Origin: Nocardioides sp. YIM 152315
Lineage (GTDB): Bacteria; Actinomycetota; Actinomycetes; Propionibacteriales; Nocardioidaceae
Assembly: GCF_029210375.1 (NCBI RefSeq)
Contig: NZ_JARGER010000023.1
Coordinates: 92,962-156,961, forward strand
Direction of reading: 5' to 3'
Length of the DNA stretch: 64,000 nucleotides
Below the pieces are notes generated by a model that worked only from the letters and a program-made list of their open reading frames with translations, had not been told where the DNA came from and ran no database searches. The position numbers and the translations under genes are program-made. Shown here in pieces: positions 33,246 to 53,238 of this stretch. The stretch's first letter is position 1, and the number at the start of each line of letters is the position of its first letter.

Positions 33246-34562
33246 TTACGGCCGACCCAGTGCCCGGTACCGCCAGCCCGCCGCTCGCCACGCGTCCGGG
33301 TCGAGAGCGTTGCGGCCGTCGATGATCCGCCGCGTCTGCACCAGACCGCCGAGCTCGACCGGGTCGAGGGCGACGTACTCGGGCCACTCCGTCAGCAGCA
33401 GCACGAGCTCGGCGGCGGTGACCGCCTCCTCCGCGCTGTAGGCGAACTTCAGGTCCGGCCACCTCGTCCGGGCGTTCTCGACGGCCCGTGGATCGGTGAC
33501 GACCACGTCGGCACCCTGCAGGGCCATCTGCGCGGCCACGTTGAGGGCCGGAGAGTCGCGTACGTCGTCGCTGTGCGGCTTGAAGGCGGCGCCGAGGATC
33601 GCGATCCGCCGGCCGACGATCGAGCCGTGGCACTCCTCGCGGGCGAGATCGACCATCCGCACCCGCCGGCGCATGTTGATCGAGTCGACCTCGTGGAGGA
33701 AGGTCAGCGCCTGGTCGACTCCGAGCTCGCCGGCGCGGGCCATGAACGCACGGATGTCCTTGGGCAGGCAGCCTCCGCCGAACCCGAGACCCGCACTGAG
33801 GAACTGCCGCCCGATCCGCTCGTCGTGCCCGATCGCCTCGGCGAGCCGGACGACGTCGCCGCCGGTCGCCTCGCACATCTCCGCCATCGCGTTGATGAAG
33901 GAGATCTTCGTGGCCAGGAAGGAGTTCGCGGCCACCTTGACGAGCTGCGCGGTCGCGTAGTCGGTGCACACCAGGGGCGCCCCGCCGGCGAGGACCTCGG
34001 CGTACACCTCGGTCAGCAACTGCGCCGCGGCCTCTCCGGCGGCGCCCGGCGCGACGCCGAAGACCAGCCGGTCGGGCCTGAGCGTGTCCTCGACGGCATG
34101 CCCCTCGCGCAGGAACTCGGGGTTCCACACGAGCTCGGCGCGCGGCTGGACTTCGTGGATGCGGCGGGCGAGGCGCTCGGCGGTGCCCACCGGCACCGTC
34201 GACTTGCCGGCCACGACGTCGCGCGCCGACAGGTGGGGTAGCAGCCCATCGATCGCCGCATCCACGAAGGTCAGGTCGGCGGCGTCCTCGCCGCCACGCT
34301 TCTGAGGGGTGCCCACGCAGATGAAGTGGACGGCGCAGTCGGCGACGTCGGCGACGTCGGCGCTGAACCGCAGCCGTCCGCTTGCCATGCCCGACTCCAG
34401 CAGCTCGGGGAGGCCGGGCTCGTAGAACGGCGCCTCGCCGCGCGACAGCAGCTCGATCCGGGCCGGGTCGGTGTCGACGCCGACGACGTCGTGACCCATC
34501 GCCGCGAGCCCGGCGGCGTGCACCGCGCCCAGGTAGCCGCAGCCGATCACCGAAATCCGCAC
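33246..34562 (-). CDS. ugd: UDP-glucose 6-dehydrogenase
   Basis: The 438-residue enzyme oxidises UDP-glucose to UDP-glucuronate with NAD. It has the N-terminal Rossmann motif (RISVIGCGYLGAVHAAGLAA), the VGTPQ segment (FICVGTPQKRGGED), the KSTVPVGTAERL motif, and the catalytic Cys in LGFGGGCLPKDIRAFMA. The C-terminal half has ILGAAFKPHSDDVRDSP and a second Rossmann domain. It is the first gene of the polysaccharide locus and would supply glucuronate units. It follows the GT4 gene with a 24-bp gap and is likely co-transcribed. Confidence 0.94.
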   Translation of the reverse strand: MRISVIGCGYLGAVHAAGLAAMGHDVVGVDTDPARIELLSRGEAPFYEPGLPELLESGMASGRLRFSADVADVADCAVHFICVGTPQKRGGEDAADLTFVDAAIDGLLPHLSARDVVAGKSTVPVGTAERLARRIHEVQPRAELVWNPEFLREGHAVEDTLRPDRLVFGVAPGAAGEAAAQLLTEVYAEVLAGGAPLVCTDYATAQLVKVAANSFLATKISFINAMAEMCEATGGDVVRLAEAIGHDERIGRQFLSAGLGFGGGCLPKDIRAFMARAGELGVDQALTFLHEVDSINMRRRVRMVDLAREECHGSIVGRRIAILGAAFKPHSDDVRDSPALNVAAQMALQGADVVVTDPRAVENARTRWPDLKFAYSAEEAVTAAELVLLLTEWPEYVALDPVELGGLVQTRRIIDGRNALDPDAWRAAGWRYRALGRP

Positions 34563-34586
34563 GATGTCTCCCCTTCGCTCGGTCTG

Positions 34587-35927
34587 TCAGGCCCCGACGG
34601 CCCGGTCCTCGGGCACCGGCTCGACCTCCGGCACCGGCCCCCGGCCGAGCACGAAGGCCCGGAACTCGAGCTCGTCGCCGAGGTCGACGTACGCCTCTGC
34701 GCCGTCGCTGGCGGCCGCGGCGCGGTCGGCGCGCAGCAGCTGGTCGTAGACGCGCACGTACGCCACCGACTGCGGCTTCCAGTCGAGCGAGAGCGACACC
34801 CGGCGACGCGCGCGCCGCGCCAGGTCGAACCGCAGGTCCGGGTCGTCCAGCAGCCGCTCCACCGCGTCGGCGAAGGCCTGGATGTCGCCGGAGGGGACGT
34901 AGAGGCACGAGTCGCCACCCGAGACCCGCGTCTCCGCCAGGTCGAACGAGACCGACGGCACGGCGTAGGCCATGTACTCCATGGTCTTGTTCATCGTCGA
35001 CACGTCGTTGAGCGGCGTCTTCTGGTCCGGGCACAGCCCCACTGCGGCGGCGCTCAGGTGCTGGGCGATCGCCGCGGGGCCGACCCGACCGGTGAAGGTC
35101 ACGAGGTCGTCGAGATCGAGGTCGCGCGAGAGCTCCTGGAGATCGCGCAGGCAGTCGCCGAAGCCCATCAGCGTCGCCTGTACGTCGGTGCGGCCGCGCC
35201 GGTGCACGAGCTCGTCCATGACGTGCAGCACGGTGTCCACCCCGTCCTGCGGCCCCATGATGCCGAGGTAGGCGAGCGTGTGCCGCCCCGGGGGCGGCGA
35301 GCTCTCGGGCCGGTGCACCGGCCGCATCACCGTCGTGTCCGGACCGCTCCGGACGACGGTGACGTCGTCCGGAGCGAACCCGCCACGGTCGATGGCGATG
35401 CGCTTGTAGGACTCGTTCGTCGAGATCACGTGGTCGGCGGTCGCGTAGGTGCGCCGTTCGAGCCAGCGCAGCCCCCACAGCTGGAGGCGCCCCGACATGC
35501 CCTCGGGCTCCCCGAAGCGCGACAGGAAGAGCTCGGGGTTGAGGTCGTGCTGGTCGAAGACGAAGGCCACACCACGCCGCTTCCACCAGCGCGCGAGGGC
35601 CCAGTAGGTGTCCGGCGGGTTGCACGCCTGGATCGCGTCGAACGGCCGCCGGCGCCACACCCGCCGGGAGAGGAGCGCGGTGCGCACCCACGAGTACACG
35701 AACTCCACCAGGTAGCCGAGCACACCGTGCGCCTCGGGCGCGGGCCGGTACTTGTAGAGGTGAACGCCCTCGATGGTGGATCGGGAGGGGTCTCCCGGTC
35801 CCCGGGGGCAGATCACGCTGACCTCGTACCCAGCAGCGGTCAGCGCCTGGCACTCCAGCCAGACGCGCCGGTCCAGCGGCACCGGCAGGTTCTGCACGAT
35901 CACCAGCACGTGAGGGTTCTCTGCCAT
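34587..35927 (-). CDS. GT4-family glycosyltransferase
   Basis: The 446-residue product has two Rossmann-like halves of the GT-B fold. The N-terminal one (VLVIVQNLPVPLDRRVWLEC, then FDQHDLNPELFL) resembles WcaI/GumH-type sugar transferases. The C-terminal one shows LAYLGIMGPQDGVDTVLHVM, MGFGDCLRDLQ and the donor site region NDVSTMNKTMEYMAYAVPSV, with the conserved Glu in the helix. ATG 35927 is used rather than an upstream in-frame ATG. Divergent from the lasso cluster. It probably adds a hexose or uronic acid to the exopolysaccharide repeat unit. Confidence 0.85.
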   Translation of the reverse strand: MAENPHVLVIVQNLPVPLDRRVWLECQALTAAGYEVSVICPRGPGDPSRSTIEGVHLYKYRPAPEAHGVLGYLVEFVYSWVRTALLSRRVWRRRPFDAIQACNPPDTYWALARWWKRRGVAFVFDQHDLNPELFLSRFGEPEGMSGRLQLWGLRWLERRTYATADHVISTNESYKRIAIDRGGFAPDDVTVVRSGPDTTVMRPVHRPESSPPPGRHTLAYLGIMGPQDGVDTVLHVMDELVHRRGRTDVQATLMGFGDCLRDLQELSRDLDLDDLVTFTGRVGPAAIAQHLSAAAVGLCPDQKTPLNDVSTMNKTMEYMAYAVPSVSFDLAETRVSGGDSCLYVPSGDIQAFADAVERLLDDPDLRFDLARRARRRVSLSLDWKPQSVAYVRVYDQLLRADRAAAASDGAEAYVDLGDELEFRAFVLGRGPVPEVEPVPEDRAVGA

Positions 35928-35980
35928 GCGGCACACCTTGTGGGGGTGGGCTGGGAGCCGCGCGACGGTAGGGGCGAACA

Positions 35981-35994
35981 TCCCTGAAATCGGT
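35981..35994. promoter_or_regulatory. Weak copy of the CCC-N6-GGG dyad
   Basis: TCCCTGAAATCGGT lies in the divergent region between the GT4 gene (start 35927) and the lasso cluster (start 36143). Only part of the right half-site matches the consensus seen at 44441 and 62786, so this is the least certain site of the group. The rest of the 215-bp region shows no clear repeat. Confidence 0.3.
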
Positions 35995-36142: not shown

Positions 36143-36400
36143 ATGAGGCTTCGGGGCGACAACCTCACCTGGCGGGAGATCGACGGTGACCTGGTGATCC
36201 TGGATCTCCGGTCGTCGACGTACCTGACGGCGAACGCGAGCGCCACGTTGCTCATGAAGCAGCTGATCGAGGAACGGTCGGCCGGCGAGCTCGTCCACTC
36301 CCTGGTCACCGCCTTCGGGATCAGGCAGCAGCAGGCCGAACACGACGTGCAGGCGTTCCTCGACGACCTCGAGGGGAGCGACCTGCTGGAGACTGCCTGA
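36143..36400 (+). CDS. Lasso peptide RRE protein (PqqD-like, B1)
   Basis: The 85-residue protein has the PqqD/RRE winged-helix fold: LRGDNLTWREIDGDLVILDL, then SSTYLTANASATLLMKQLIE, then a helical tail (FGIRQQQAEHDVQAFLDDLE, GSDLLETA). In split lasso systems this protein binds the leader peptide and presents the precursor to the cysteine protease and cyclase. Placement before the precursor is unusual, since B1 normally follows the cyclase in actinobacterial clusters. It is preceded by GAAGAGACGTAG. A clear match to the family by pattern. Confidence 0.88.
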   Translation: MRLRGDNLTWREIDGDLVILDLRSSTYLTANASATLLMKQLIEERSAGELVHSLVTAFGIRQQQAEHDVQAFLDDLEGSDLLETA

Positions 36401-36414
36401 GGGCAGAGTCCACG

Positions 36415-36440
36415 CCGACGGAGACTCCGAATTCCGTCGG
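36415..36440 (+). promoter_or_regulatory. Hairpin in the leader of the lasso precursor gene
   Basis: CCGACGGA (36415-36422) pairs with TCCGTCGG (36433-36440) around a 10-base loop. It lies between the B1 gene and the precursor ribosome site AGGAGGGAGG. Together with the stronger hairpin downstream it would isolate the precursor mRNA segment. Confidence 0.5.
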
Positions 36441-36467
36441 GATGAGTTCCCAGGAGGGAGGTGAATC

Positions 36468-36599
36468 ATGGACACCCAGTACGAGTCCCCGAGGCTGAAG
36501 CAGCTCGGATCGGTGAAGGACCTGACCCTTGGTGAAGGCTGGGAGGGCGACGACGACACGTTCCTCTTCTTCTTCCACTACGGCGTCGACTACAGCTGA
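36468..36599 (+). CDS. Lasso peptide precursor, class with C-terminal Ser
   Basis: The 43-residue precursor has the leader pattern YxxPxLxxxG-x5-T: Tyr5, Pro8, Leu10, Gly14 and Thr20 (MDTQYESPRLKQLGSVKDLT). Thr20 is the usual penultimate leader residue, so cleavage should occur after Leu21. The core would be 22 residues: it begins GEGWEGDDD, continues TFLFFF and ends HYGVDYS. Gly1 can close a ring on Asp7, Asp8 or Asp9 (8- and 9-residue rings are commonest). The FLFFFHY stretch gives bulky plugs. The final Ser is the phosphorylation site expected for the kinase at 38326. A very strong ribosome site precedes ATG 36468. Confidence 0.9.
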   Translation: MDTQYESPRLKQLGSVKDLTLGEGWEGDDDTFLFFFHYGVDYS

Positions 36600-36614
36600 T
36601 CGACACGACCGCGA

Positions 36615-36649
36615 TGTCAGGGGTCGCCCGATCCGGGCGACCCCTGACA
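36615..36649 (+). terminator. Perfect 15-bp hairpin after the lasso precursor
   Basis: TGTCAGGGGTCGCCC (36615-36629) pairs perfectly with 36635-36649 around loop GATCC. It lies 15 bp after the precursor stop and before the cyclase ribosome site AGGAGGGGGG. No T run follows, so it is likely an attenuator or 3' stabiliser giving more precursor than enzyme mRNA. Confidence 0.75.
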
Positions 36650-36695
36650 CTCGTCAGCCCACGACCGAACATCGACGCAGGAGGGGGGTGCGAGG

Positions 36696-37862
36696 ATGAC
36701 GACCAAGGCTCAGGACGACTACGTCCGCTGCAGTCCGCTCGAGACCGCATCCGGCTGGGTCTACGGACGTACGACGCCGCCGCCGCTGTCGGCCACGCGG
36801 CGCACGCCGCGCGAGGCGCTCGACGACGCCATCCGGCCCGCGCTGCTCGACGGTCCGTGCTACGTGACGTTCTCCGGCGGTCGCGACTCCTCGGCCGTGC
36901 TGGCCGCCGCCACCGCGCTCGCCCGCCGGGAGGGCCATCCGCTGCCGATCCCGGTCACCCGGTGCTACCCCGACATCCCGGCCACCGACGAGTCCGCGTG
37001 GCAGCGCATGGTCGTCGACCACCTGGGCCTCACCGAGTGGATCCGCTTCGAGCTCCGCGAGGACGAGAGCGATCTGCTGGGCGACACCGCGCGCGCCGGA
37101 CTGCGCGCCCGCGGCCTCCTCTGGCCGGCACCCCTGCAGACGCACGGGTTCGTCTTCGAGCGACTGCGGGGCGGCTCGCTCCTCACGGGTGAGGGCGGAG
37201 ACGCCGTGTTCGGCGCCCGTCGGATCACTCCGCTGACCGTGCTGCGCCGTCACGGGAAGCCGAGCCGCGCACTCGTGGCCGCTGCCCTCACGACCACGCT
37301 CCCCGCCTCGCTGCGACGACGCCAGGCGGTGCGCGGCGCACGCACCTCCGCCCAGAGCCGGTGGCTGACGCCGGCCGCCCTCGAGCGGCACGCACGCCTC
37401 GTCGTGGACGACCTGGCCCGCGAGCCGCTGCGCTACGACGAGGCGACCTGGGCGATCGCGGGATGGCGCTCCTTCGCGACGGTCCGGCACAACCACACAC
37501 GCGCCGCGGCCGAGTTCGACATCGACGCGCACGACCCGCTGCTCGACGCGGGCTTCCTCGCCGCACTGGCGCGTGCGGGAGGCATCGCCGGATTCAACGG
37601 GCGGACGTCGGTCATGCGCGCACTCTTCTCCGACGTCCTGCCGGCGGCGCTGATCGCGCGCCCGACGAAGGCGGCCTTCAACCTCGCCAATCGCGGCGAG
37701 GCGACGACCGAGTTCGCGCGAGGCTGGGACGGCTCCGGCGTCGACCACGACCTCGTGGACGCCGAGCGGCTGCGGGAGGTCTGGCTCTCCGACCGCCCGA
37801 CCATGGCCAGCGGGCTGCTCCTGCAGCAGGCATGGCTGGCCTCGGAAGGACTGCTCCCATGA
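36696..37862 (+). CDS. Lasso peptide macrolactam synthetase (C protein)
   Basis: The 388-residue protein has an asparagine-synthetase-type ATP domain with PP-loop FSGGRDSSAVLAAATAL (residues 59-75), LTGEGGDAVFG (near 165), and a late R-T-S-V-M-R helical part. It lacks most of the N-terminal glutaminase domain found in full-length homologues, keeping only about 40 residues before the ATP domain. It adenylates the Asp side chain and joins it to Gly1 to close the ring. It overlaps the B2 gene by four bases. Family match is clear; the truncated N-terminus is the odd point. Confidence 0.88.
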   Translation: MTTKAQDDYVRCSPLETASGWVYGRTTPPPLSATRRTPREALDDAIRPALLDGPCYVTFSGGRDSSAVLAAATALARREGHPLPIPVTRCYPDIPATDESAWQRMVVDHLGLTEWIRFELREDESDLLGDTARAGLRARGLLWPAPLQTHGFVFERLRGGSLLTGEGGDAVFGARRITPLTVLRRHGKPSRALVAAALTTTLPASLRRRQAVRGARTSAQSRWLTPAALERHARLVVDDLAREPLRYDEATWAIAGWRSFATVRHNHTRAAAEFDIDAHDPLLDAGFLAALARAGGIAGFNGRTSVMRALFSDVLPAALIARPTKAAFNLANRGEATTEFARGWDGSGVDHDLVDAERLREVWLSDRPTMASGLLLQQAWLASEGLLP

Positions 37863-38329
37863 GCCTGCCTCGACGGCGGATCCCGCGAGTGACCCCGGCG
37901 GAGCTCCCCACCCTGCTCGCCACCCTGCTCATGGCCGTCGTGGTCGAGGTCGGGCTGCGAGTGACCACCCTCCCCCGGCTGGCGCGCCTGCTCGGCACGA
38001 CCCTCGTCGTGGACGGGGCCGGGTCGACCAACAGGCCGATGGACCGTGGGCCGGTGGCGCCGCTCCCGCCGCGCGCCGTCAAGCAGCTCCAGGCCATCCG
38101 TCGCGTGCTGCGGCACTGGCCGTTCGGTGACACCTGCCTGCGCCAGGCCCTCGTCGGCGGCGGGCGGCTGCGCCGTCTCGACCCGTCGCTCGTGGTCGGC
38201 GTGGCGAAGATCGACGGCGAGGTCCGAGCGCACTCCTGGCTGCTCGTCAACGGCACGGTCGTGGACCCGCTGTTCGCCGCCGCCTCCTACCAGCCCTTGA
38301 CCTCGATCTCGACAGGACTCGCGACATGA
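37859..38329 (+). CDS. Lasso leader peptidase (B2, transglutaminase-like)
   Basis: The 156-residue protein has a hydrophobic N-terminus (about 16-32, ELPTLLATLLMAVVVEVGLR), then the catalytic core: Cys93 in FGDTCLRQALVGGGRLRRL, His125 in VRAHSWLLVNG and Asp136 in TVVDPLFA. This Cys-His-Asp triad is that of the lasso B2 family. It removes the leader after Leu21 with help from B1. It overlaps both the cyclase and kinase genes by ATGA, so translation is coupled. Confidence 0.9.
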   Translation: MSLPRRRIPRVTPAELPTLLATLLMAVVVEVGLRVTTLPRLARLLGTTLVVDGAGSTNRPMDRGPVAPLPPRAVKQLQAIRRVLRHWPFGDTCLRQALVGGGRLRRLDPSLVVGVAKIDGEVRAHSWLLVNGTVVDPLFAAASYQPLTSISTGLAT

Positions 38330-39294
38330 CGACACTGACTCGGCTGTACGGCCTGACCGTCCGGTCGGAGGTCCCGCTCCACCAGGACCGACCGGCAGCG
38401 CCGTCCGCGCCCGTCGACCTCGACATCGTCCTCGGCGCGCGACGGGGCGCGACCGACGCGCCTCCCCCGGGCCGCACCCTGCTGGACCTCCGGATGGATC
38501 GGCAGCTCTACACCGGGAGCATGACGGACGACGCCTACCACCTGCGCTTCTACAACGCGTGCGACATCGAGATCAACCGCGAAATGGACCACGCCGTGAT
38601 CCATCCTGTCGGCGACACCGACGAGGCGCTCCTCTCGGTGATCGCAGGAGGCACGCTGCTCGCGTTCGTGCTCGCGCTGCGCGGCGAGACCGTGCTGCAC
38701 GCCAGTGCCGTCCAGGTCGGGGACGTCGCCCTCGGCTTCGTCGGCGCCTCGGGCATGGGCAAGTCCACGACCGCCACCCTCATGTGCGCGGACGGCGGGC
38801 GGCTCATCACCGACGACCTGCTGCGCCTCGACCTGTCCCAGTCGCCACCGACCTGCTCGCTGGGCGCGACGGAGCTGCGCCTCCGCAAGGCGGCCGGCGA
38901 CCTCGCGGGGCGGTTCGAGCGCCAGCCGACACAGCGCATCACCGGTGACGAGCGCGACGCCCTCGCCGTCTCCGTGGCCGACACCGAGGGCCTCCCGCTC
39001 GTCGGGCTCGTCGTGCCGGCTCCCGATCACTCGGGACAGTCGACGCGCGCGAGCGTGCACCGGCTCGGGGCGAAGGAGTCCTTCATCATGCTCTCGCGGT
39101 TCCCTCGCCTGCTGGGGTGGCAGGACACCAGGATGCTCGGACAGCAGTTCCAGCAGCTGGGCGACGTCGTCGAGCGGGTGCCGCTGTACGTCGCGCGGCT
39201 GCCGTGGGGTCCGCCGTTCGCCCACGACCTCGCGGCGGACGTCCGAAGGGCGGTCGGCATCGACGAGCTCGTGCCGGCGGCCGTGGCGGGATGA
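38326..39294 (+). CDS. HPr-kinase-like lasso peptide kinase
   Basis: The 322-residue protein has the HPr kinase fold in its C-terminal half: TVLHASAVQVGDVALGFVGA, P-loop GASGMGKST (residues 140-148), and TDDLLRLDL, the acidic motif with catalytic Asp. The N-terminal 110 residues form a beta-rich domain common to this subfamily. Homologues in lasso clusters phosphorylate the C-terminal Ser of the peptide, and the precursor here ends in Ser. It overlaps the B2 gene by ATGA. Confidence 0.88.
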   Translation: MTTLTRLYGLTVRSEVPLHQDRPAAPSAPVDLDIVLGARRGATDAPPPGRTLLDLRMDRQLYTGSMTDDAYHLRFYNACDIEINREMDHAVIHPVGDTDEALLSVIAGGTLLAFVLALRGETVLHASAVQVGDVALGFVGASGMGKSTTATLMCADGGRLITDDLLRLDLSQSPPTCSLGATELRLRKAAGDLAGRFERQPTQRITGDERDALAVSVADTEGLPLVGLVVPAPDHSGQSTRASVHRLGAKESFIMLSRFPRLLGWQDTRMLGQQFQQLGDVVERVPLYVARLPWGPPFAHDLAADVRRAVGIDELVPAAVAG

Positions 39295-39307
39295 CGAGGA
39301 GCCAGGC

Positions 39308-40579
39308 GTGACCAGCGAGCAGAAGGAGCGCGGCGTGGGGACCCGCCGGGCGAGACGGGAGCGCGCGATCGACGACCTGTTGGTCGACGTCTGCGCCGGC
39401 CGCCCCCCACGGCTCCCCGCGGGAGACGAGGTCGCCGGCGAGGTCTTCGACGAGATCGTCCGCGCCACGAGGTTCCACCGGATCGCTCCGCTGACCCAGG
39501 TCGCCCTGCGCGAGCAGTATCCGGAGGCCGCCAAGCGGCTGCGGGGGCACCGTGACCACGCCATGCTGCACCACCTGCGGACGATGGCCGCGCTGGGCGG
39601 GATCGCGAAGGCCCTGGACGGGATCCCCTGGCTCACCTTCAAGGGTCCGGTGCTGTCCGAGCTCGCTCACCCGCTCCCGGGGCTGCGTTCCTACGCGGAT
39701 CTCGACCTGCTGCTGGCACCCGAGGACCTCCGTGCCGGCTGCGAGCGCCTGGCCGAGGCCGGATGGACGATCACCGGCCCGGAGGCAGCGCTCCGCTTCC
39801 GACCGGTGAACGGGGAGATCTCCCTCGTCGGCTCCGACGGCACGGTCCTGGACCTGCACTGGGCCATGATCAACCCGGCCCGGAGGCGATCGCACTTCAC
39901 GGTCTCGACCGGCAGCCTGCTCGCGCGGCGCGTGCCGGTGACGCTGGGACCGACACGGGCGTGGACGCTGGACGACGCCGACGCGCTCGTCCACGTCTGC
40001 ATGCACGCCGCGCTCGCGGGCGCCAACCGGCTCGGTCACCTTCTCGACGCCGACCAGCTGGCGCGGCAGACCGAGGACTGGGACGCGATCGCCCGGCGCG
40101 CGCGGGAGTGGTCGGCAACGCCTCAGGTCGCACTCGTCCTCGGCCGGGCGTCCCGTCTGCTCGGAACGCCGGTGCCCGACGACCTGCGCCGCCGGCTCGG
40201 ACTGTCGTCGGCGTTCGAAGCGCTCACCGCGACGGTCGATCGGCACTGGCCGGTCCATCGTCTGCGGCACGACGCGTCGGTCCCGCGCCTGGTCGCCCGC
40301 GGCGCCCGGGACGGCGCGCTCCGCAGCCTCGCGTCGATCGGCCGGAACGGGTTCCTGGGGATCGTCGACCGCGTCCGGCCACTCACCTCGGCGCCGCCCC
40401 CGGTGCCGCCCGGTGCCCCGCCTCGGCGCACCCCTGTCGACCCCCACGCGGTCGAGGACTACCTCGCCGCGGTCGAGGACCTCGCGCACCGGCCGGGCGG
40501 CGCGCGCTCACGGCCGCGCGTCCTGCGACGGGCCGAGCCGCTCATGTCGGCCGTCGGGCCGACACGACAGGACGCCTGA
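39308..40579 (+). CDS. Nucleotidyltransferase-family tailoring protein of the lasso cluster
   Basis: From GTG 39308 the product is 423 residues. It matches the nucleotidyltransferase family often annotated as PF14907: FKGPVLSELAHPLPGLRSYA, DLDLLL with the paired Asp131 and Asp133, and VGSDGTVLDLHWAMI. Members commonly sit beside HPr-like kinases in lasso clusters and are thought to act on the phosphate added to the C-terminus. The C-terminal 60 residues are Pro/Arg-rich and probably disordered. It starts 13 bases after the kinase stop. Exact chemistry is unknown. Confidence 0.75.
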   Translation: MTSEQKERGVGTRRARRERAIDDLLVDVCAGRPPRLPAGDEVAGEVFDEIVRATRFHRIAPLTQVALREQYPEAAKRLRGHRDHAMLHHLRTMAALGGIAKALDGIPWLTFKGPVLSELAHPLPGLRSYADLDLLLAPEDLRAGCERLAEAGWTITGPEAALRFRPVNGEISLVGSDGTVLDLHWAMINPARRRSHFTVSTGSLLARRVPVTLGPTRAWTLDDADALVHVCMHAALAGANRLGHLLDADQLARQTEDWDAIARRAREWSATPQVALVLGRASRLLGTPVPDDLRRRLGLSSAFEALTATVDRHWPVHRLRHDASVPRLVARGARDGALRSLASIGRNGFLGIVDRVRPLTSAPPPVPPGAPPRRTPVDPHAVEDYLAAVEDLAHRPGGARSRPRVLRRAEPLMSAVGPTRQDA

Positions 40580-40580
40580 G

Positions 40581-42446
40581 ATGGCTGCGGACGTCGCACC
40601 GACGGACCCGCTCGCGCTTCGCGCGGCCGCGCGCTCAGCACCCAAGTCGTTCGGACGGCTGTCGCAGCTGGTGGGGGCCAGCGTCTCGCTCGTGTGGTCC
40701 GCTGCCCGCCTCCTGTTCCTCGCCCTCGTGGCGCTGCAGCTGCTCGCGGCCGTCGCGCTGGCCGCGCAGGTCCTGGCCGTGCGCGAGCTCCTCGACGCGG
40801 TCCTGACCGCGGACAGCCAGGGCGACACCGGCATCGTGCTCACCCCGATCGTCATGCTCGCTGCGCTGACGGCGGTCGCCGCCGTGACGACGGCACTCCA
40901 GGGTCAGCTGCAGCGCCTGCTCGGCGAGTGCGTCACCCGCACGATGTGGAGCAAGGTGCTGTCGGTCGCGACGGGCGTGGGGCTCCGCTTCTTCGAGTCC
41001 CCGGAGTTCTTCAACCGGCTCAACCGGGTCCAGACGAGCGCCCTCGTCCGCCCGTACCAGGTGACCCAGGGGCTGCTGACCATGGCCGGCGCGCTCGCCG
41101 CCAGCCTCGGCCTCGGCCTCGTCCTCCTGCGGGTGGCCCCCGTGCTCCTGCCGCTGGTCGTCATCGGCGGCATCCCCATGCTGATCACCAGCCGACGCGA
41201 GTCGAGGCTGGAGTTCGACTTCGCAGTCGAGCAGACCCCCACCGTCCGGCTCCGGAGCTACCTGGCGATGCTGCAGACGGGCCGGCCCGAGGCGAAGGAG
41301 GTCCGGGCCTTCGGCCTCGGCAGGTGGCTGGGCAACCGGTTCGACGGGCTCTACGCCACCTACCTGCACGATCTGAAGCGGCACGTACGACGCCGCAGCA
41401 TCCTCAGCCTCGTGGGGCAGGTCGGCTCCGCCGTCGTCCTCGGCGGCACGCTGATCGTGCTCGCCGGGCTCATCGCCCGCGGCCGGATCGACGTGGCCAC
41501 CGCCGGCGCCGCGGTCGTCGCCATCCGGTTGCTCGCCACCCAGGTCCAGACCCTTTTCCGCGGGGTGCAGACGATCTTCGAGTCGGGACTCTTTCTCGAC
41601 GATCTCGACGAGTTCCTCGCCTACGGTCGCCCGGCGGGCGAGGAGGACTCCGGTGCAGAGGCACCGGAGTCGTTCGACGCGCTGCGCGCCGAGGGTCTGA
41701 CCTTCCGCTATCCCGGCTCCGAGACGCCCGCGCTGCGCGGTGTGGACATCGACCTGCGCGCGGGCGAGGTCGTCGCCCTGGTCGGAGAGAACGGCTCGGG
41801 CAAGACCACGCTCGCGAAGCTGCTCGCCGGACTCTACGAACCGGAGGCCGGCCGCATCCTGTGGGACGACCGGGACGCCGCCGCCTTCCGGCCGTCGAGC
41901 CTGCGCAGCCGGATCAGCGTCGTCTTCCAGGACTTCGTGCGCTACGCCCTGCCGGCGACGGAGAACATCGCCGTCGGGCGCGTCGACGAGCCGGCGGACC
42001 CGCTCCGGGTCCGGATGGCGGCGGCCGCCGCCGGCGCCGATGCCACCCTGGACAGCCTCCCCCACGGCTACGACACCGTGCTCTCGCGCATGTTCGCCGA
42101 CGGCACCGACCTCTCCGGGGGCCAGTGGCAGCGGGTCGCGCTCGCGCGCTCGTTCTACCGCGACGCGCCGCTGGTGATCCTCGACGAGCCCAGCGCCGCC
42201 CTCGACCCCCGCGCGGAGCACGAGCTCTTCTCGACGCTCCGCGAGGCACTGCACGGCCGGACCGCGCTCTTCATCTCCCACCGCTTCTCCACGGTCCGGG
42301 GAGCCGACCGGATCTACGTCCTCCACGAGGGCGAGGTCGTCGAGCAGGGCAGCCACGACGACCTCATCGCCCAGGACGGCCGGTACGCCGAGCTCTACCG
42401 GCTGCAGTCCGACGCCTACGTCGCCAAGGAGATGCAGCGCAGATGA
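40581..42446 (+). CDS. ABC exporter (lasso D protein)
   Basis: The 621-residue half-transporter has a membrane domain of about six helices (40-350) and a nucleotide-binding domain with Walker A VGENGSGKTTLAKLL, Q-loop VVFQDFVRYAL, signature LSGGQWQRVALAR, Walker B LVILDEPSAAL, and H-loop ISHRFSTV. It is the expected exporter and immunity protein for the lasso peptide. No peptidase C39 domain is present, consistent with leader removal by B2. It overlaps the next glycosyltransferase by ATGA, linking export to the polysaccharide genes. Confidence 0.87.
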   Translation: MAADVAPTDPLALRAAARSAPKSFGRLSQLVGASVSLVWSAARLLFLALVALQLLAAVALAAQVLAVRELLDAVLTADSQGDTGIVLTPIVMLAALTAVAAVTTALQGQLQRLLGECVTRTMWSKVLSVATGVGLRFFESPEFFNRLNRVQTSALVRPYQVTQGLLTMAGALAASLGLGLVLLRVAPVLLPLVVIGGIPMLITSRRESRLEFDFAVEQTPTVRLRSYLAMLQTGRPEAKEVRAFGLGRWLGNRFDGLYATYLHDLKRHVRRRSILSLVGQVGSAVVLGGTLIVLAGLIARGRIDVATAGAAVVAIRLLATQVQTLFRGVQTIFESGLFLDDLDEFLAYGRPAGEEDSGAEAPESFDALRAEGLTFRYPGSETPALRGVDIDLRAGEVVALVGENGSGKTTLAKLLAGLYEPEAGRILWDDRDAAAFRPSSLRSRISVVFQDFVRYALPATENIAVGRVDEPADPLRVRMAAAAAGADATLDSLPHGYDTVLSRMFADGTDLSGGQWQRVALARSFYRDAPLVILDEPSAALDPRAEHELFSTLREALHGRTALFISHRFSTVRGADRIYVLHEGEVVEQGSHDDLIAQDGRYAELYRLQSDAYVAKEMQRR

Positions 42447-43381
42447 CCCAGCCCGACGTCGCCATCGTCCTGGTCACCTTCAACAGCGCCGACTGGGTCA
42501 ACCGGTGCCTGGACGCGATTCCCGCTGCGCTCGACGGCCGCGAGGCGGAGATCGTCGTGGTCGACAACGCCTCGAGTGACGAGAGTGCCGCCCTGGTCGA
42601 GCAGGGGTACCCGGGGGTCACGCTGATCCGCAACGCGGAGAACGTCGGCTTCGCGAAGGCGGTCAACCGCGGTGCCGCCGCGACCACGGCGCCCTGGGTG
42701 CTCCTGCTCAACCCCGACATGGAGGCGCGGCCCAGAGCGCTGCGCAACCTCCTGGAGTTCGCCGAGAAGAACCCCGACAACGGCCTGTACGGCGGCCGCA
42801 CCCTCACCGTCGACGGCGAGCTCGAGCGGTCCTCGTGCTGGGGCCTGCCCACGGTCTGGAGCACCTTCTGCTTCGCCGTGGGACTGAGCACGGCCTTCAA
42901 GCACTCGCCGGTCTTCGACCCCGAGTCACTCGGCCGGTGGCAGCGTGACTCCGTCCGCGAGGTGGGGATGGTCACGGGCTGCCTGTTCCTGGTCCGCCGG
43001 GACGACTGGCAGCGGCTCGGGGGGCTGGACGAGCGCTACTTCGTGTGCGGCGAGGACGCCGACTTCAGCGCGCGGGCGCGCGCCCACGGCATGCGACCGG
43101 TCGTGACCCCCGACGCCGAGGTGGTGCACGCGGTCGGCAAGTCGTCCACCAGCCAGGCGGGCAGCACGCCCCTGATGCTGGCCGGGCGGGTGGTCTACGC
43201 CCGCATGCACTTCCCACGGGGATCCGCCGCGCTGGTCGTCACCCTGCTGCGCACCGGCGTGGCCGTGCGTGCGCTGGGCTCCCGGTGCACAGGCCGCGCC
43301 CCGAAGTGGCTGGCGACCTGGCGACGACGCTCCGAATGGTGGCAGGGGTTCCCCGCGGCCGCCACGCCCCCGGGTTCCTGA
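42443..43381 (+). CDS. GT2 glycosyltransferase (rhamnosyltransferase-like)
   Basis: The 312-residue GT-A protein has VAIVLVTFNSADWVNRCLDA, the donor site EIVVVDNASSDES and VGFAKAVNRGAAA, LLLNPDME (the DxD-like position is NPDM), and GGLDERYFVCGEDADFSARA. This is the wbbL-like rhamnosyltransferase plan. It overlaps the lasso exporter and is the last gene of that rightward transcript. It may serve the polysaccharide, or could modify the lasso peptide; the first is more likely. Confidence 0.82.
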   Translation: MTQPDVAIVLVTFNSADWVNRCLDAIPAALDGREAEIVVVDNASSDESAALVEQGYPGVTLIRNAENVGFAKAVNRGAAATTAPWVLLLNPDMEARPRALRNLLEFAEKNPDNGLYGGRTLTVDGELERSSCWGLPTVWSTFCFAVGLSTAFKHSPVFDPESLGRWQRDSVREVGMVTGCLFLVRRDDWQRLGGLDERYFVCGEDADFSARARAHGMRPVVTPDAEVVHAVGKSSTSQAGSTPLMLAGRVVYARMHFPRGSAALVVTLLRTGVAVRALGSRCTGRAPKWLATWRRRSEWWQGFPAAATPPGS

Positions 43382-43399
43382 CCCGGCGGCTGGGTCAGG
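43377..43399. terminator. Shared hairpin over two convergent stop codons
   Basis: CCTGACCC (43377-43384) pairs with GGGTCAGG (43392-43399) around GGCGGCT. It includes the stop codons of both the rightward GT2 gene and the leftward GT2 gene, which are 13 bp apart. It probably terminates both. Confidence 0.55.
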
Positions 43400-44270
43400 G
43401 TCGGGCCCGGGAGCTCTCGTCGCGCAGCCAGGTGGTGTAGTCGCCCGATCGCACGGCCCTGCGTGAGTTCCTGCGGGCCACGAGGACGATGCCGAGGAAG
43501 ACGGGCATCCGGAGGCCGATGCGCGGGTCGCGCAGCGCCATCCGCAGCAGCACCGACGGCGTCGTGACCGACGAGCGACGGCGGATCCCGAGGTCGCTGG
43601 CCTGGGCGTTGCCGGTGACGACGCGCACCCGCCGTCGGAGCAGGTCGGCCGTGGTGCGTGGCGGGTGCACCACGACGGTGGCGTCCGCGACGACCCGACG
43701 TTCGGACTCGGCGAACGCGTCCGAGAACGCCAGGTCGTCACTCATCACCCGCGGCAGGCTGTCGACGCGGCTCTGGCCCTCCTCCGACAGCGCGACCACT
43801 CCCCTGCCGAAGAGACCGTCGCGGACCTGCGGCAGCTGCTCCCAGACGCGGTAGTAGCTGCGCACGGGCCACGACGAGTCCCGCAGCGGCACCAGTCGGG
43901 CCGGCGCGGCGGCGTGGACGCCGCCGCGGACGGCGCGCGCCAGGGCGATCGCGTCGGCGCCGGAGATCATCACGTCGGCGTCGAGGTGGATCCGCGGGAA
44001 GACGGTGGCGGCGCGGTTGCCGACGGCCGTCGCCTGCGCCTTCGAGGGCTCGGCGATCTCGATCACTCGTACGCCGTCGAAGCCCCGCGCGACCTCGGCG
44101 GTGTCGTCCGTGCACCCGTTGCAGACGACGACCACCTCGAGGCGGCCGGCCCCGGCGCGGTCCAGGAGCGAGCGCAGCGTCGCCCCGATCACCTGGGCCT
44201 CGTCGTGCGCGGGGATCACGACGCTCGCGATCACCGGTCGACCCGAACGGCTGCCCTGGACGTCCACCAT
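43395..44270 (-). CDS. GT2 glycosyltransferase
   Basis: The 291-residue protein has the GT-A pattern ASVVIPAHDEAQVIGATLRS, VVVVCNGCTDDTAEVAR, and LDADVMIS as the DxD region. A later acidic site is MSDDLAFSDAF. The C-terminal ~50 residues contain a weak membrane-associated helix (IGLRMPVFLGIVLVARRN). It is similar in plan to glycosyltransferases that act at the membrane on lipid-linked sugars. Divergent from the beta-helix gene at 44508, with two dyad motifs between. Confidence 0.82.
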   Translation of the reverse strand: MVDVQGSRSGRPVIASVVIPAHDEAQVIGATLRSLLDRAGAGRLEVVVVCNGCTDDTAEVARGFDGVRVIEIAEPSKAQATAVGNRAATVFPRIHLDADVMISGADAIALARAVRGGVHAAAPARLVPLRDSSWPVRSYYRVWEQLPQVRDGLFGRGVVALSEEGQSRVDSLPRVMSDDLAFSDAFAESERRVVADATVVVHPPRTTADLLRRRVRVVTGNAQASDLGIRRRSSVTTPSVLLRMALRDPRIGLRMPVFLGIVLVARRNSRRAVRSGDYTTWLRDESSRARP

Positions 44271-44373
44271 CCACCCCCTCGATCGTCACGTCGTACGCCG
44301 CGAACCCACGCCGCGCACCGGCAACCCATCCTGCAGCGGCTACGCACGGACCCGGTCGAACGACGGTCGGCTT

Positions 44374-44454
44374 CCCGGCTATTGGGTAGCCGGGGCGCGC
44401 GCTCGGCGGGCGTGCCACGGTGCGGCCGAGCGCGGCTCATACCCAGAGTTGGGG
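44374..44454. promoter_or_regulatory. Pair of CCC-N6-GGG dyads in divergent region
   Basis: CCCGGCTATTGGGT (44374-44387) and ACCCAGAGTTGGGG (44441-44454) are 67 bp apart. The first is also the core of a hairpin CCCGGCTA/TAGCCGGG. The second lies 54 bp before the GTG of the beta-helix lipoprotein. Similar sites occur at 52181, 52246, 53239 and 62786. No other feature is evident in the 237-bp gap. Confidence 0.5.
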
Positions 44455-44507
44455 GAGCCGGTCGGGCGGCCGGGGTCTGACCGGTCCTGCGCGACGACGA
44501 TGCATCC

Positions 44508-45362
44508 GTGGACGCGCTCGAACTCGTCATCGCGGGAGCGCTCGCGGCGACACTGGCCGCGAGCTGCCTGACCGGCTGCTCGGACGACGCGGACGGCGGC
44601 ACGGCGAAGGAAGCACCGTGCGACGTCCGGCCGTCGGCCGACAACACCGGTGCCACCGGCGACCTGCGGCGCGACTCGACGGCCGTCGTCGAGGAGGACG
44701 GCGCGACGCTGGAGGACGTCCACCTCGGCAGCGTCGAGGTGCGCGCGGACGACGTCACGCTCCGCAACGTGCGGGTCGACGGGAACATCCTCGTCACCGG
44801 GGACGGCGTCACGATCGACCACGTCAGCACCACCGGGATCGCGATCTCGAGCGCCTCGAAGGCCGAGGTGCGGTACTCGAACATCGGCGGGGGCGCCGAG
44901 GACGGCATCCACGTCACCTCCGACCGGGGCCGGCTCGCGACGGACATCACGCTGAGCTACAACTTCGTGCACTCACCGGAGGTCCCGCCAGGCGGACACT
45001 ACGACGGCACCCAGGTGCGGGGCGTCGACGGGCTCCTCGTGACGTGCTCGACGTACGACGCGGGCCCCTATGAGAGCACCCACAACGCCGCCATCTACCT
45101 CGAGGACGCGAACGGCGGTGACGCCAACGTCGCGATCGAGCACAACTGGCTGCTCGGCTCGGGCTTCTCCGTGATGCTCGACGCGCCCGGCACCCGGCTG
45201 ATCGGCAACCGGGTCGCCGGTGATCCCCACTGGGGCACCTGCTACCTCGGCCCGGGCACCACCCCCGACGCGCTGACGATCCGCGACAACGTCGACGAGG
45301 CGACCGGCGATCCCGACCCTCTGTGCACCGCGTCACCGAGCGCCGCTCCGGGCGACTCGTGA
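44508..45362 (+). CDS. Beta-helix lipoprotein of the polysaccharide locus
   Basis: The 284-residue protein has a lipoprotein signal (LVIAGALAATLAASCLTGCS, lipobox LTGC). The mature part is a right-handed beta-helix with VRADDVTLRNVRVDGNILV strands. Patches shared with the prophage protein at 13273 and the protein at 52365 are DNTGATG, HYDGTQVRG, HNAAIYLEDANGGD, HNWLLGS and DPHWGTCYLG. It may be a membrane-anchored polysaccharide lyase, hydrolase or binding protein that trims or holds the exopolymer. No catalytic residues can be assigned. Start at GTG 44508. Confidence 0.75.
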   Translation: MDALELVIAGALAATLAASCLTGCSDDADGGTAKEAPCDVRPSADNTGATGDLRRDSTAVVEEDGATLEDVHLGSVEVRADDVTLRNVRVDGNILVTGDGVTIDHVSTTGIAISSASKAEVRYSNIGGGAEDGIHVTSDRGRLATDITLSYNFVHSPEVPPGGHYDGTQVRGVDGLLVTCSTYDAGPYESTHNAAIYLEDANGGDANVAIEHNWLLGSGFSVMLDAPGTRLIGNRVAGDPHWGTCYLGPGTTPDALTIRDNVDEATGDPDPLCTASPSAAPGDS

Positions 45363-45426
45363 CGGCACCGACCAGATCCAGGAACCACCCAGAAGACACG
45401 ACCGGGGACGCGAAGGAGACAGCGAG

Positions 45427-46167
45427 ATGATGGCAGTGATCTTGGCCGGAGGTCTGGGCCTGCGGCTGCGCCCGTACACCATGAACATCCCCAAGCCGCT
45501 GCTGCCGCTCGGCGACACGCCCACGATGGAGATCGTGCTGCGACAGCTGGCCGACCAGGGCTTCACGAGAGTCGTGCTGACCCTGGGTCACCTGCCCGAG
45601 CTGATCGTCGCCCTGCTCGGCGACGGTGAGCGCTACGGCCTCCAGATCGACTACCAGTTCGAGGACGAGCCGCTCGGCACGGCCGGGCCGCTGCGTCTGG
45701 TCGACGACCTCGACGAGACGTTCCTGGTGATGAACGGCGACCTGCTGACCACGGTCGACTACGGCGACGTGATCCGCGACCTCGAGTCCCGGGAGAGTGC
45801 CGCGACGATCGTGCTCGCGCGGCGCCAGGTCCACATCGACTACGGCGTGGTCCACGCCGCGCCGACGGGCTCCCTGGAGCGCTACGAGGAGAAGCCCACC
45901 CTGGACTACTTCGTCAGCACCGGCATCTACGGGCTCACCAGGAGGTCGGTCGCGACGATCCCGGAGGGTCGGTTCGACATGCCGTCCCTGATGTCGCGAC
46001 TCGCCGAGAACGGCGAGGACGTCCATTGCATGAAGTCCGACGCCTACTGGCAGGACATCGGACGATTCGACGACTACCAGCGGGCCAGCGCGGACTTCGC
46101 CGACGCCCCCCATCGCTTCCTGCCGGGGCTGCCCGCCCCGGAGGCACCGGGGGTCGTGCTCACGTGA
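45427..46167 (+). CDS. NDP-sugar nucleotidyltransferase
   Basis: The 246-residue protein has the NTP-transferase signature AVILAGGLGLRLRPYTMNIP and KPLLPLGDTPTMEI, VMNGDLLTTVDYGDV (metal Asp), and GVVHAAPTGSLERYEEKPTL. It is short and lacks the C-terminal left-handed beta-helix. It resembles mannose-1-phosphate guanylyltransferase or glucose-1-phosphate thymidylyltransferase-like enzymes; specificity cannot be read. Its stop overlaps the GTG of the epimerase/dehydratase gene, so they are coupled. Confidence 0.85.
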   Translation: MMAVILAGGLGLRLRPYTMNIPKPLLPLGDTPTMEIVLRQLADQGFTRVVLTLGHLPELIVALLGDGERYGLQIDYQFEDEPLGTAGPLRLVDDLDETFLVMNGDLLTTVDYGDVIRDLESRESAATIVLARRQVHIDYGVVHAAPTGSLERYEEKPTLDYFVSTGIYGLTRRSVATIPEGRFDMPSLMSRLAENGEDVHCMKSDAYWQDIGRFDDYQRASADFADAPHRFLPGLPAPEAPGVVLT

Positions 46168-47396
46168 ACCCGGTGCACACGGCACGCCGTCCGGTCGGTC
46201 GGACGGCCCGCCTCGCCCGCGAGGTCGTCCGTCGCCAGGACTCGCTGCTCCGACCCGACCTCGACTCCCACGCCGAGAGGATGGCCGACGAGGTGCGCGG
46301 CGAGCGGGTGCTGGTCGTCGGCGGGGCCGGGAGCATCGGGTCGGCGACGGTCGCCGAGCTGGCCCGGCTCCGACCGCGGCAGCTCCACGTCGTCGACACG
46401 GACGAGAACGGGCTCACGGAGCTGGTGCGCGACCTGCGCAACCGCGACCTGGTGAGGGCGGAGACCGAGCTGCGCACCACGCCGATGGACGCGGGCTGCC
46501 CGAGCATGCTGCGCCTGATCACGGAGAACGGCGGCTACGACCGCGTGCTGAACTTCGCGGCGGTCAAGCACGTGCGCTCGGAGAAGGACGTCTACTCCCT
46601 GCTGCGGATGCTGGAGATCAACGTGCGGCTGCCGCGGCGGCTGCTCGAGTGGGTCGGTGGCAGCACCCGTCGCTACTTCGCGGTGTCGACCGACAAGGCG
46701 GCGAACCCCGTGAACCTGATGGGTGCCTCCAAGCGGGCGATGGAGCACGTCATCCTCGACGAGCAGCTCGGCCCCGAGGTCACGAGCGCCCGCTTCGCCA
46801 ATGTCGCCTTCTCCCAAGGATCCCTCCTCGACGGCTGGCTGCGACGGATGGACAAGGGCCAGGCCTGGGCGGTGCCGCGCGACACCCGGCGCTACTTCGT
46901 GACGCTCGAGGAGTCGGGTCACCTCTGCACGCTGGCGGCTGTCCTGGGGCGCCCCGGCGAGGTCGTCATCCCGCACCTGGATCCCCGGACGGAGCTTCGC
47001 GACCTCGTCGAGGTGGCCGAGGACGTGCTCGGGAGCCTGGGCCTCCGACCGAACTTCTGCGAGGAGGAGGACGAGGCCCGACGCTCGGCCGCCGATCCGG
47101 CGCCCGGGACCTGGCCGGTGCTCCTCACCGACCTCGACACCACCGGTGAGAAGGAGTTCGAGGAGTTCGCCGCGCCCGGGGACGTCGTCGGCGACGCCGG
47201 CTTCACGGCGCTGCGCTCGCTGCGAGCCCCCCGGACGCACTCGGAGCTCATCGGGTCGGCGCTGCGCGCACTGGCCGGTTGGCTCGACGACCCGACGGCG
47301 CCGGTGGACGAGGAGGACGTCGCAGACCTCCTCCGCACGCTGGTGCCCGAGCTCCAGCACCGCGGCAGTGCGCGAGGACTCGATGCGCGCATGTGA
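46164..47396 (+). CDS. CapD/FnlA-like nucleotide-sugar dehydratase (SDR)
   Basis: The 410-residue protein has an SDR Rossmann motif VLVVGGAGSIGSATVAELAR, FAAVKHVRSEKD, the Ser/Thr-Asp-Lys-Ala STDKAANPVNLMGASKRAME segment typical of UDP-GlcNAc 4,6-dehydratases of the CapD/FlaA1 type, and a C-terminal extension (FCEEEDEARRSAADPAPGTW). An extra N-terminal ~40 residues precede the fold but there are no membrane helices, so it is the soluble type. It would provide a 6-deoxy-amino sugar precursor. Confidence 0.85.
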   Translation: MNPVHTARRPVGRTARLAREVVRRQDSLLRPDLDSHAERMADEVRGERVLVVGGAGSIGSATVAELARLRPRQLHVVDTDENGLTELVRDLRNRDLVRAETELRTTPMDAGCPSMLRLITENGGYDRVLNFAAVKHVRSEKDVYSLLRMLEINVRLPRRLLEWVGGSTRRYFAVSTDKAANPVNLMGASKRAMEHVILDEQLGPEVTSARFANVAFSQGSLLDGWLRRMDKGQAWAVPRDTRRYFVTLEESGHLCTLAAVLGRPGEVVIPHLDPRTELRDLVEVAEDVLGSLGLRPNFCEEEDEARRSAADPAPGTWPVLLTDLDTTGEKEFEEFAAPGDVVGDAGFTALRSLRAPRTHSELIGSALRALAGWLDDPTAPVDEEDVADLLRTLVPELQHRGSARGLDARM

Positions 47397-47427
47397 TCCG
47401 GCCGCGCGCTGACAGGAGAGTGATCCG

Positions 47428-48585
47428 GTGACGCACGTCCTCTACAGCTTCCCGCACCCGGTCGGCGGTGTCGGCATCGGCACGGTCGCCTGGCACCACG
47501 TCGACAGCCTCGCCCGAGCCGGCGCCCGGGTGACCGTCGTCTGCACCGCACTGCACCGCTCCTTCGACCCGCGCCTGCCGATCCGGGTCGTGCCGGTGCT
47601 CGGCCCGATCCGGCCGCGCATGATCGGGCGCGCGCGAGCGGCCGACCTGGTCGACCGGATGACGGCGCGCCAGCTCCGGATCGCGCGTCCGGACGTCGTC
47701 CACACCTGGCCCCGGGCCGTCCTCAGGACCGCGGCCCGCGCGGCCGAGCTGGGCGTGCCGTCGGTCCGTGAGGCGCCCAGCCCCTACACGCGTACGGCGA
47801 TCTCCGAGGCGGCCGCCGCCTGGACCGCCGTCGGGCTGGACGTGCCCGCCGGGCACTTCCACCGGATCCCCGAGTCCGTGCTCGCGCTCGAGGACCGCGA
47901 GTTCAGCGCGGTCGACCTCGTGCTGGTCGGCTCTCCCGAGGCCGCCAGGTCGTTCGACGCGGCCCCGGTCCCGGTGCGTGTCTGCGTCAACCGCTACGGG
48001 TTCGACGCGGCCGGCTTCCACCGGCGCGAGCGGTCCGATCGGGCGCGCACCGCGGTCTTCATCGGCCGGGCCGAGCCCGCCAAGGGGGTCCACGTGCTGC
48101 TGCGCGCGTGGTCCCGCGCGCACCGGCCCCGGGACACGCGCCTGCTCATCCGCGGCGCCATCCCGCCCGACGTACGCCAGCTCCTCGCCGGCGAGCTCGA
48201 CGACCCCAGCGTCGTGGAGTGCCCACCGGTCGACGACATCGGCGCCTTCCTCGCCGGCACCGACGTGCTGATCCACCCCAGCTTCTCGGAGGGCAGCGCC
48301 CTCGTCACCTACGAGGCCCTCGGCGCCGGCGTCGTCCCGCTGGTGTCGACGGCCGCGGGGTCGCCCGTGCGCCACGACGTCGACGGGCTCGTGCACGCGA
48401 CCGGGTCGGAGGCCGAGCTCGTGTGCCACCTCGAGCGGGTGCTCACCGACCCGGCGGAGTGGAGCCGGTTGCGCGCCAACGGCGAGTCCAGCGCACCGGG
48501 GTGGACCTGGGACGCGGCCGCCGCCCGCATGCTCGAGCTCTACCGCGGTCTCGGCAGCAGCTCGCCGACGGCGACGGCGTCCTGA
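47428..48585 (+). CDS. GT4-family glycosyltransferase
   Basis: The 385-residue GT-B enzyme begins VLYSFPHPVGGVGIGTVAWH (glycine-rich acceptor loop). The C-terminal half has AVFIGRAEPAKGVHVLLRAW, a donor-site helix at DVLIHPSFSEGSALVTYEAL (the E-x7-E-type Glu), and AAGSPVRHDVDGLV. It starts at GTG 47428. Convergent with the next gene, with only 21 bp between stops. The role is transfer of one sugar in the repeat unit. Confidence 0.85.
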   Translation: MTHVLYSFPHPVGGVGIGTVAWHHVDSLARAGARVTVVCTALHRSFDPRLPIRVVPVLGPIRPRMIGRARAADLVDRMTARQLRIARPDVVHTWPRAVLRTAARAAELGVPSVREAPSPYTRTAISEAAAAWTAVGLDVPAGHFHRIPESVLALEDREFSAVDLVLVGSPEAARSFDAAPVPVRVCVNRYGFDAAGFHRRERSDRARTAVFIGRAEPAKGVHVLLRAWSRAHRPRDTRLLIRGAIPPDVRQLLAGELDDPSVVECPPVDDIGAFLAGTDVLIHPSFSEGSALVTYEALGAGVVPLVSTAAGSPVRHDVDGLVHATGSEAELVCHLERVLTDPAEWSRLRANGESSAPGWTWDAAAARMLELYRGLGSSSPTATAS

Positions 48586-48606
48586 CCGGCCGAGCCGTCG
48601 ACGCCG

Positions 48607-51248: not shown

Positions 51249-51259
51249 GACCGCCTGCC

Positions 51260-52099: not shown

Positions 52100-52180
52100 G
52101 GTTCCCCATCTCTGTCGTCCTTGCCTCGTCGGCAGACTAGGCGGGGGGTGTCGCCCGGATCGTGGGGGAGACGGCGTCGT

Positions 52181-52259: not shown

Positions 52260-52364
52260 GTGGGCCGGCGCGGTCCCGGGAAGCTGTCCTCCGGGCCCGA
52301 GGTCGGCTCCCGGTCAGGTCGCGGAGCCACCCCCCACTCCTCCCGACCCCCAAGGAGGGCCCGC

Positions 52365-53216: not shown

Positions 53217-53238
53217 CCTGCGCGGGCAGCGCCGCTGA

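Follow-up and report, generated by a model that had tools for sequence, protein, structure and literature searches.

A complete lasso-type gene cluster with a synthetase-only cyclase and a predicted C-terminal peptide kinase among polysaccharide genes of Nocardioides

The 64,000-nucleotide stretch of Nocardioides sp. YIM 152315 analysed here (contig NZ_JARGER010000023.1, positions 92,962 to 156,961 of the forward strand; hereafter the window) carries at 36143-42446 a real and complete gene set of a known kind in variant form. Profile searches of the window proteins identified seven lasso-type genes in the order B1-A-C-B2-K-N-D, all on the + strand. We consider it probable, with moderate confidence, that this cluster specifies a 22-residue lasso peptide that is phosphorylated at its C terminus and then likely capped with hexose, a proposal drawn from gene content and residue conservation. 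In the scheme we favour, B1 would present the leader to each of K, B2, and C, with K phosphorylating the C-terminal Ser22 on the linear precursor and C, despite its short front part, activating the Asp9 side chain with ATP to close the ring to Gly1. N would then build a Ser-phosphate-hexose from a sugar nucleotide, placing one or more hexoses before export of the product by D.

The precursor and its expression

The hallmarks of a lasso cluster, namely a YxxPxL...T(-2) leader in the precursor, an RRE domain, and a B2 peptidase, are all present (NF033521, PF05402, and NF033537). Gene A (36468..36599) encodes a 43-residue precursor that matches NF033521 at 23.9 bits relative to a cut-off of 19, with a leader, MDTQYESPRLKQLGSVKDLTL, that contains YxxPxL and Thr(-2), and a predicted core, GEGWEGDDDTFLFFFHYGVDYS, of 22 residues. 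B1 (36143..36400) encodes an 85-residue PqqD-like RRE protein that exceeds the curated cut-off of PF05402 (E 3e-12) while its top NCBIfam match, lasso_PqqD_Strm, scores 47.5 bits, under the cut-off of 70 for that model. The leader peptidase B2 (37859..38329; 156 residues) matches NF033537 with 55 bits against a cut-off of 33, as well as PF13471, and its catalytic triad, placed by eye, is presumably Cys93-His125-Asp136.

The identification of A as the precursor is backed by its conservation in relatives: the three nearest (P0001-P0003) are 84-86% identical, and 29 more distant ones share the leader spacing. Relatives in loci with a short cyclase like that of the window were assembled into a set of 30 precursors (29 different) found with leader patterns that placed no constraint on the core and then chosen by eye, with antisense and in-gene matches excluded. 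The distance from the leader Tyr to Thr(-2) is 15 in all 30, the window precursor included. Core residue 1 is Gly in 19/30 and Ala in 5/30, position 9 is Asp in 26/30 and Glu in 1/30, and the C terminus is Ser in 27/30 and Ser-Arg in the other three, compared with a terminal Ser in 158/1539 called genes. Related loci in this set are not independent (for example L098 and L099; the L102 and L104 precursors are identical). At one locus, L105, no precursor was found, and the L148 precursor, which also has a terminal Ser and Asp at position 9, stands outside the 30.

The window core has Gly1, Asp7, Asp8, Asp9, and Ser22, and so offers a core-1 amine together with acidic residues in the range from 7 to 9. 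Among its three consecutive Asp residues, the ring residue is best resolved as Asp9 because Asp occupies that position in 26 of the 30 precursors; P0001 and P0003 change position 7 and retain Asp8 and Asp9. The predicted ring is thus Gly1-Asp9, and the predicted phosphorylation site is Ser22. Monoisotopic masses calculated for the possible products are 2602.060 for the linear core and 2584.049 for the lasso, rising to 2664.016 with one phosphate, 2826.069 with phosphate and one hexose, 2988.121 with phosphate and two hexoses, and 2969.057 with phosphate and CMP. Two loci, L096 and L106, each hold two lasso-type precursors, and L096 adds a second, longer cyclase-like frame (642 residues). L044 (position 500, - strand) and L049 (position 6658, - strand) each encode, beside B1, B2, and K, a precursor-like peptide that likewise has a terminal Ser but whose leader carries Trp instead of Tyr.

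The sequence-only reading of this DNA described one rightward transcript with ATGA overlaps, a description that stands in part. All seven genes do lie on the + strand, and ATGA overlaps occur at C/B2 (37859), B2/K (38326), and D with the following glycosyltransferase gene (42443), but no such overlap is found in the window cluster at the B1-A, A-C, K-N, or N-D junctions. A single transcript is, moreover, not a conserved property since the N gene of relatives is often found between K and D in the reverse orientation (L007, L008, L045, L050, and L051). Expression across the cluster is also probably not uniform because a perfect 16-base-pair hairpin (36615..36649, + strand; fold z-score -4.0) sits between A and C. 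Unrelated strong hairpins occupy the same place in L008, L040, L045, L050, L100, and L148, those of different loci having different sequences. Perfect stems of at least 11 base pairs and no more than 120 nucleotides after A were present in 7/26 loci relative to 15/799 operon-like junctions, where the limit of 11 was chosen post hoc after the loci had been viewed and 26 of the 31 short-cyclase loci were covered. Such a hairpin may shift expression in favour of the precursor over the enzymes.

The short cyclase and its cyclase-less sister systems

The presence of an Asn-synthetase-like cyclase, as claimed from the sequence at the outset, was borne out: the 388-residue product of C (36696..37862) exceeds the curated cut-off of PF00733 (E 5e-17), and its SGGRDSS stretch is kept in 59/59 sequences. 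Its shortened form had not been remarked. PF00733 is the only domain matched and begins at residue 39, and an in-frame stop lies 17 codons upstream of the ATG with no start codon between. In nine longer lasso cyclases, the front part that precedes the synthetase domain measures 89-288 residues. The predicted structure of C (predicted local distance difference test score, pLDDT, 93.4) covers the synthetase domain found in beta-lactam synthetase and AsnB.

Synthetase-only cyclases of this type were found in 31 loci from several actinobacterial families, where they form one group with a support of 100/100, and each of the 31 regions has a kinase match, the weakest at 84 bits (L105). These cyclases are a distinct actinobacterial clade and, relative to known lasso clusters, a new aspect. 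Among the papers listed by literature searches, none on truncated or front-domain-free lasso cyclases was noticed, although one query was too broad for absence from print to be claimed, and none of those listed for kinase-bearing lasso clusters in Nocardioides was on that subject. According to a 2026 review, no crystal structure of any lasso cyclase exists (PMC13352647). The counts cover 40 of the 46 matches of one search and leave out the weak relatives of C (L113-L122), contig pieces with K and C (L144, L150, and L155), a fragment (L112), duplicates (L093, L094, and L097, equal to L041, L045, and L009), and loci with no cyclase match (L038, L054, and L140); L042 and L044, the latter a 4-kb contig end, have B1 and B2 but no cyclase match and are left out as well.

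The absence of the longer front part seen in the nine other lasso cyclases scanned raises the question of whether C closes a lasso at all, or whether the cluster instead yields a linear phosphopeptide or a peptide with some other ATP-dependent modification. The same genus does harbour a cyclase-less system built from these K, N, B1, and B2 families, which lends this alternative some weight. Eighteen regions of the same order (L010, L011, L015, L019, L021-L028, L030-L033, L035, and L037) contain N, B2, K, and B1 with neither a cyclase-profile match nor an SGGxDS stretch, where B2 of L021 and the neighbours of L026 rest on a separate scan. All 17 precursors identified there end in Ser, 16 of them in Gly-Ser, with none found in L037; the leader Thr falls at Tyr+13, not Tyr+15, and none of the four tested has an NCBIfam match. 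In the short-cyclase loci, by contrast, the core starts with Gly or Ala in 24/30 and has Asp9 in 26/30, a pattern that is absent, by eye, from the 17 cyclase-less precursors. Together with the placement of C between the precursor and B2, the invariance of SGGRDSS, and a predicted structure covering the synthetase domain, this makes a C that is no lasso cyclase decidedly improbable, and we favour ring closure by the short enzyme.

The K and N module seems to serve knotted and linear Ser-ending peptides alike. A family 4 glycosyltransferase (GT4) lies near N in 12/18 of the cyclase-less regions, many of which share the same neighbours (BipA, sigma factor) and are hence not independent. Loci in other phylum members (L130, L135, L137-L139, L141-L143, L145, and L152) carry B1-B2-K-N with no cyclase match and adjacent Cys-containing precursors that have a common INRFF...C...WP.CY-like core.

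Predicted phosphorylation and sugar capping

K (38326..39294) is a 322-residue HprK-like peptide kinase that scores 24.6 bits against HPr_kinase_C (PF07475), below the cut-off of 33.3, and has one match in the genome of the window. Its residues His125, Gly140, Lys146, Asp163, and Asp164 are invariant in 14/14 kinases, in agreement with the published His-Lys-Asp-Asp kinase motif (PMC9266682, PMC10368454). These invariant residues, the families represented in the cluster, and the prevalent Ser end of the precursors uphold the earlier claim of a C-terminally phosphorylating kinase as a prediction, with Ser22 as the predicted target of K. The role of phosphorylated lasso peptides is called unknown in PMC13381572.

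The sequence-only reading had further suggested that the peptide is possibly nucleotidylated, a claim that turns on N (39308..40579; 423 residues, GTG start), an NTP_transf_5 protein over the cut-off of PF14907 (E 9e-41). Several features are compatible with N transferring a nucleotide, such as CMP or AMP, onto the phosphoserine. The predicted structure of N (pLDDT 91.1) has a nucleotidyltransferase fold, its nearest structural neighbours are the nucleotidyltransferases MenT1, MenT3, ANT(2''), and LnuA, and the Asp-x-Asp and distal Asp signature is intact, Lys112-Gly113, Arg127, Asp131-x-Asp133, and Asp182-Leu-His-Trp being invariant in 62/62 sequences. In the psm system, PsmN is reported to attach one or two hexoses to the phosphoserine, and expression of the psm cluster gave PsmN-dependent hexose additions (PMC9266682, PMC8498205), although one review leaves room for nucleotidylation followed by glycosylation in the E. 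coli host (PMC9266682). In addition, all 13 fetched PF14907 loci without a nearby B2 sit among glycan genes (sugar-nucleotide or glycosyltransferase), relative to 0/20 random regions. Because PsmN is reported to add hexoses and PF14907 outside lasso clusters keeps company with glycan genes, a sugar role for N is likely by analogy, and a phosphoglycosylated product is the better supposition; a nucleotidylated peptide appears unlikely. These 13 loci (L057-L069) lack B2 and cyclase and have polysaccharide or sugar-nucleotide genes around them; in 9/13 the PF14907 gene also has an HprK-like kinase beside it, mostly a distant one.

The final gene of the cluster, D (40581..42446), encodes a 621-residue MsbA-like ABC exporter that exceeds the cut-off of ABC_tran (PF00005; E 7e-31), with a top NCBIfam match, TIGR02203, under its cut-off.

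The closest parallels to the cluster come from outside the Actinomycetota. The psm cluster of Bacillus pseudomycoides likewise combines lasso core genes, a kinase, and a nucleotidyltransferase-family gene with modification of a C-terminal Ser (PMC9266682, PMC8498205), but it belongs to a different phylum, its PsmN and PsmC are likened to N and C by description and not by sequence, and the window cluster is known from genes alone. The pade cluster of Paenibacillus dendritiformis shares the split B1/B2, an HprK-like kinase with the same motif, and a C-terminal Ser (PMC9266682); unlike the window cluster, no N is among the pade constructs that are named, and the comparison extends to features other than the PadeC sequence. 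The bsf cluster of Bradymonas sediminis has the same seven genes A, B1, B2, C, D, K, and N, yet its kinase modifies Ser3, its precursor ends in Asp, and its leader has Ile(-2) (PMC10368454). Lastly, the lasso and linear polyphosphorylated peptide (LPP) clusters that Popov 2026 (PMC13381572) describes from the capsule loci of Bacilli resemble the window in being kinase/NTP-transferase clusters for ribosomally synthesized and post-translationally modified peptides inside polysaccharide loci. Those clusters belong to Bacillota, and LPP systems feature a SipW-like peptidase and Ser3 (PMC13381572), whereas the window cluster is from Actinomycetota and has a B2 peptidase, a C-terminal Ser, and a short cyclase. 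An LPP system as the identity of the window cluster was ruled out by the presence of B2 and C; a SipW-like gene was not searched for.

The polysaccharide neighbourhood

The surroundings of the cluster look like a nearly complete Wzx/Wzy-type locus. To its left, on the - strand, are a UDP-glucose/GDP-mannose dehydrogenase and a GT4 glycosyltransferase (33246..35981). To its right, a family 2 glycosyltransferase (GT2; 42443..43381, + strand; PF00535 E 2e-24) overlaps D by ATGA, as a GT2 gene also does with D in one relative (L008), and is followed at 43395..56683 by two GT4, a GT2, an NTP_transferase, a Polysacc_synt_2 protein, a Wzy-like O-antigen ligase, a Wzx-like flippase, and a further GT2. 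Methyltransferases, a PIG-L deacetylase, and a LytR-CpsA-Psr (LCP) protein (62704-63933, + strand) occupy the remainder up to the contig end (56595..63933). No initiating enzyme of the Bac_transf type was found among the window genes scanned singly, a scan that covered part of the window genes on a contig that stops at the window end. The LCP gene lies at the extreme contig end, and the polysaccharide locus may run on in another contig.

This setting recurs among relatives. In Pfam searches of 120 genes flanking 13 short-cyclase clusters, there were 12 GT4 (PF13692), 9 GT2 (PF00535), and 3 Bac_transf matches, while no glycosyltransferase was among the 25 families listed for 120 random genes, nor among those for the 84 genes around seven lasso clusters that lack a kinase. 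The short-cyclase flank set (A1) consisted of 119 of 135 listed genes, after removal of 16 exporter or antisense genes, together with the manually included GT2 at 42443; sets A2, A3, and A4 held 120 of 140, 112 of 126, and 84 of 84 genes, respectively. Profiles built from the glycosyltransferases of the window itself found 19 in the 120 A1 genes and had no match in the random genes or the kinase-free lasso flanks. When these profiles were applied to whole regions, a glycosyltransferase was present in 20/31 short-cyclase regions, 3/13 kinase-free lasso regions (p 0.020), and 0/20 random regions (p 1e-6), with p values that are too optimistic because relatives are not independent. The 13 kinase-free loci include L053 (C, B2, and a GT4), which lies outside the Pfam flank tally, and the random regions were picked blind, 300 kb-1 Mb away on the same contig, in 20 genomes carrying a B1/B2/K locus.

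Two comparisons weigh against a special tie between this kind of cluster and glycan genes. The phylum-wide subset taken alone is without contrast, with a glycosyltransferase in 3/5 kinase-bearing loci (L127, L134, L148, L149, and L154) and 2/5 kinase-free loci (L123-L126 and L129). Nor do kinase-bearing loci with a long cyclase stand out, as 3/8 have a glycosyltransferase (one GT4 in L039, none in L049).

Polysaccharide loci are recombination hot spots, and the neighbourhood could accordingly be incidental, with the lasso cluster as independent cargo that encodes, for example, an antibacterial peptide, which would be compatible with the product we favour. The adjoining glycan genes vary among relatives, with 11/31 regions lacking a glycosyltransferase match; N varies in strand and distance; and the kinase-free loci with glycosyltransferases, like the flat phylum-wide comparison, fit the same idea. 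Yet the pairing recurs across several actinobacterial families and is missing from all random regions. It is also found in Bacilli, where paeninodin-like lasso and LPP clusters lie in polysaccharide loci and, in Paenibacillus alginolyticus, one lasso, one LPP, and one exopolysaccharide gene are reported to be jointly up-regulated (PMC13381572). An incidental neighbourhood is a serious possibility, though one we hold to be somewhat short of even.

The initial proposal of a surface-polysaccharide locus with a link to the cell surface can accordingly be divided: the location is real and recurrent, though already published for Bacilli, while a physical link between peptide and polysaccharide is not supported by any result. 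A setting of this kind was already known; what is added is its occurrence in Actinomycetota together with a distinct cyclase. In the boldest form of the proposal, lasso peptides would be built covalently into an actinobacterial glycan coat, with K supplying the phosphoserine, N the phosphodiester-linked hexose, and the neighbouring glycosyltransferases and LCP protein the joining to polysaccharide, the linear Ser-ending sisters being treated likewise; we rate this a very long shot.

Outside Bacilli, a testable set is now available in this actinobacterial group, whose members have a minimal cyclase, a near-fixed C-terminal Ser, and frequent polysaccharide neighbours. If C does close a lasso, this synthetase-only protein would offer a small lasso cyclase for study, and a glycan-bound peptide, if true, would represent a new way of decorating the cell surface.

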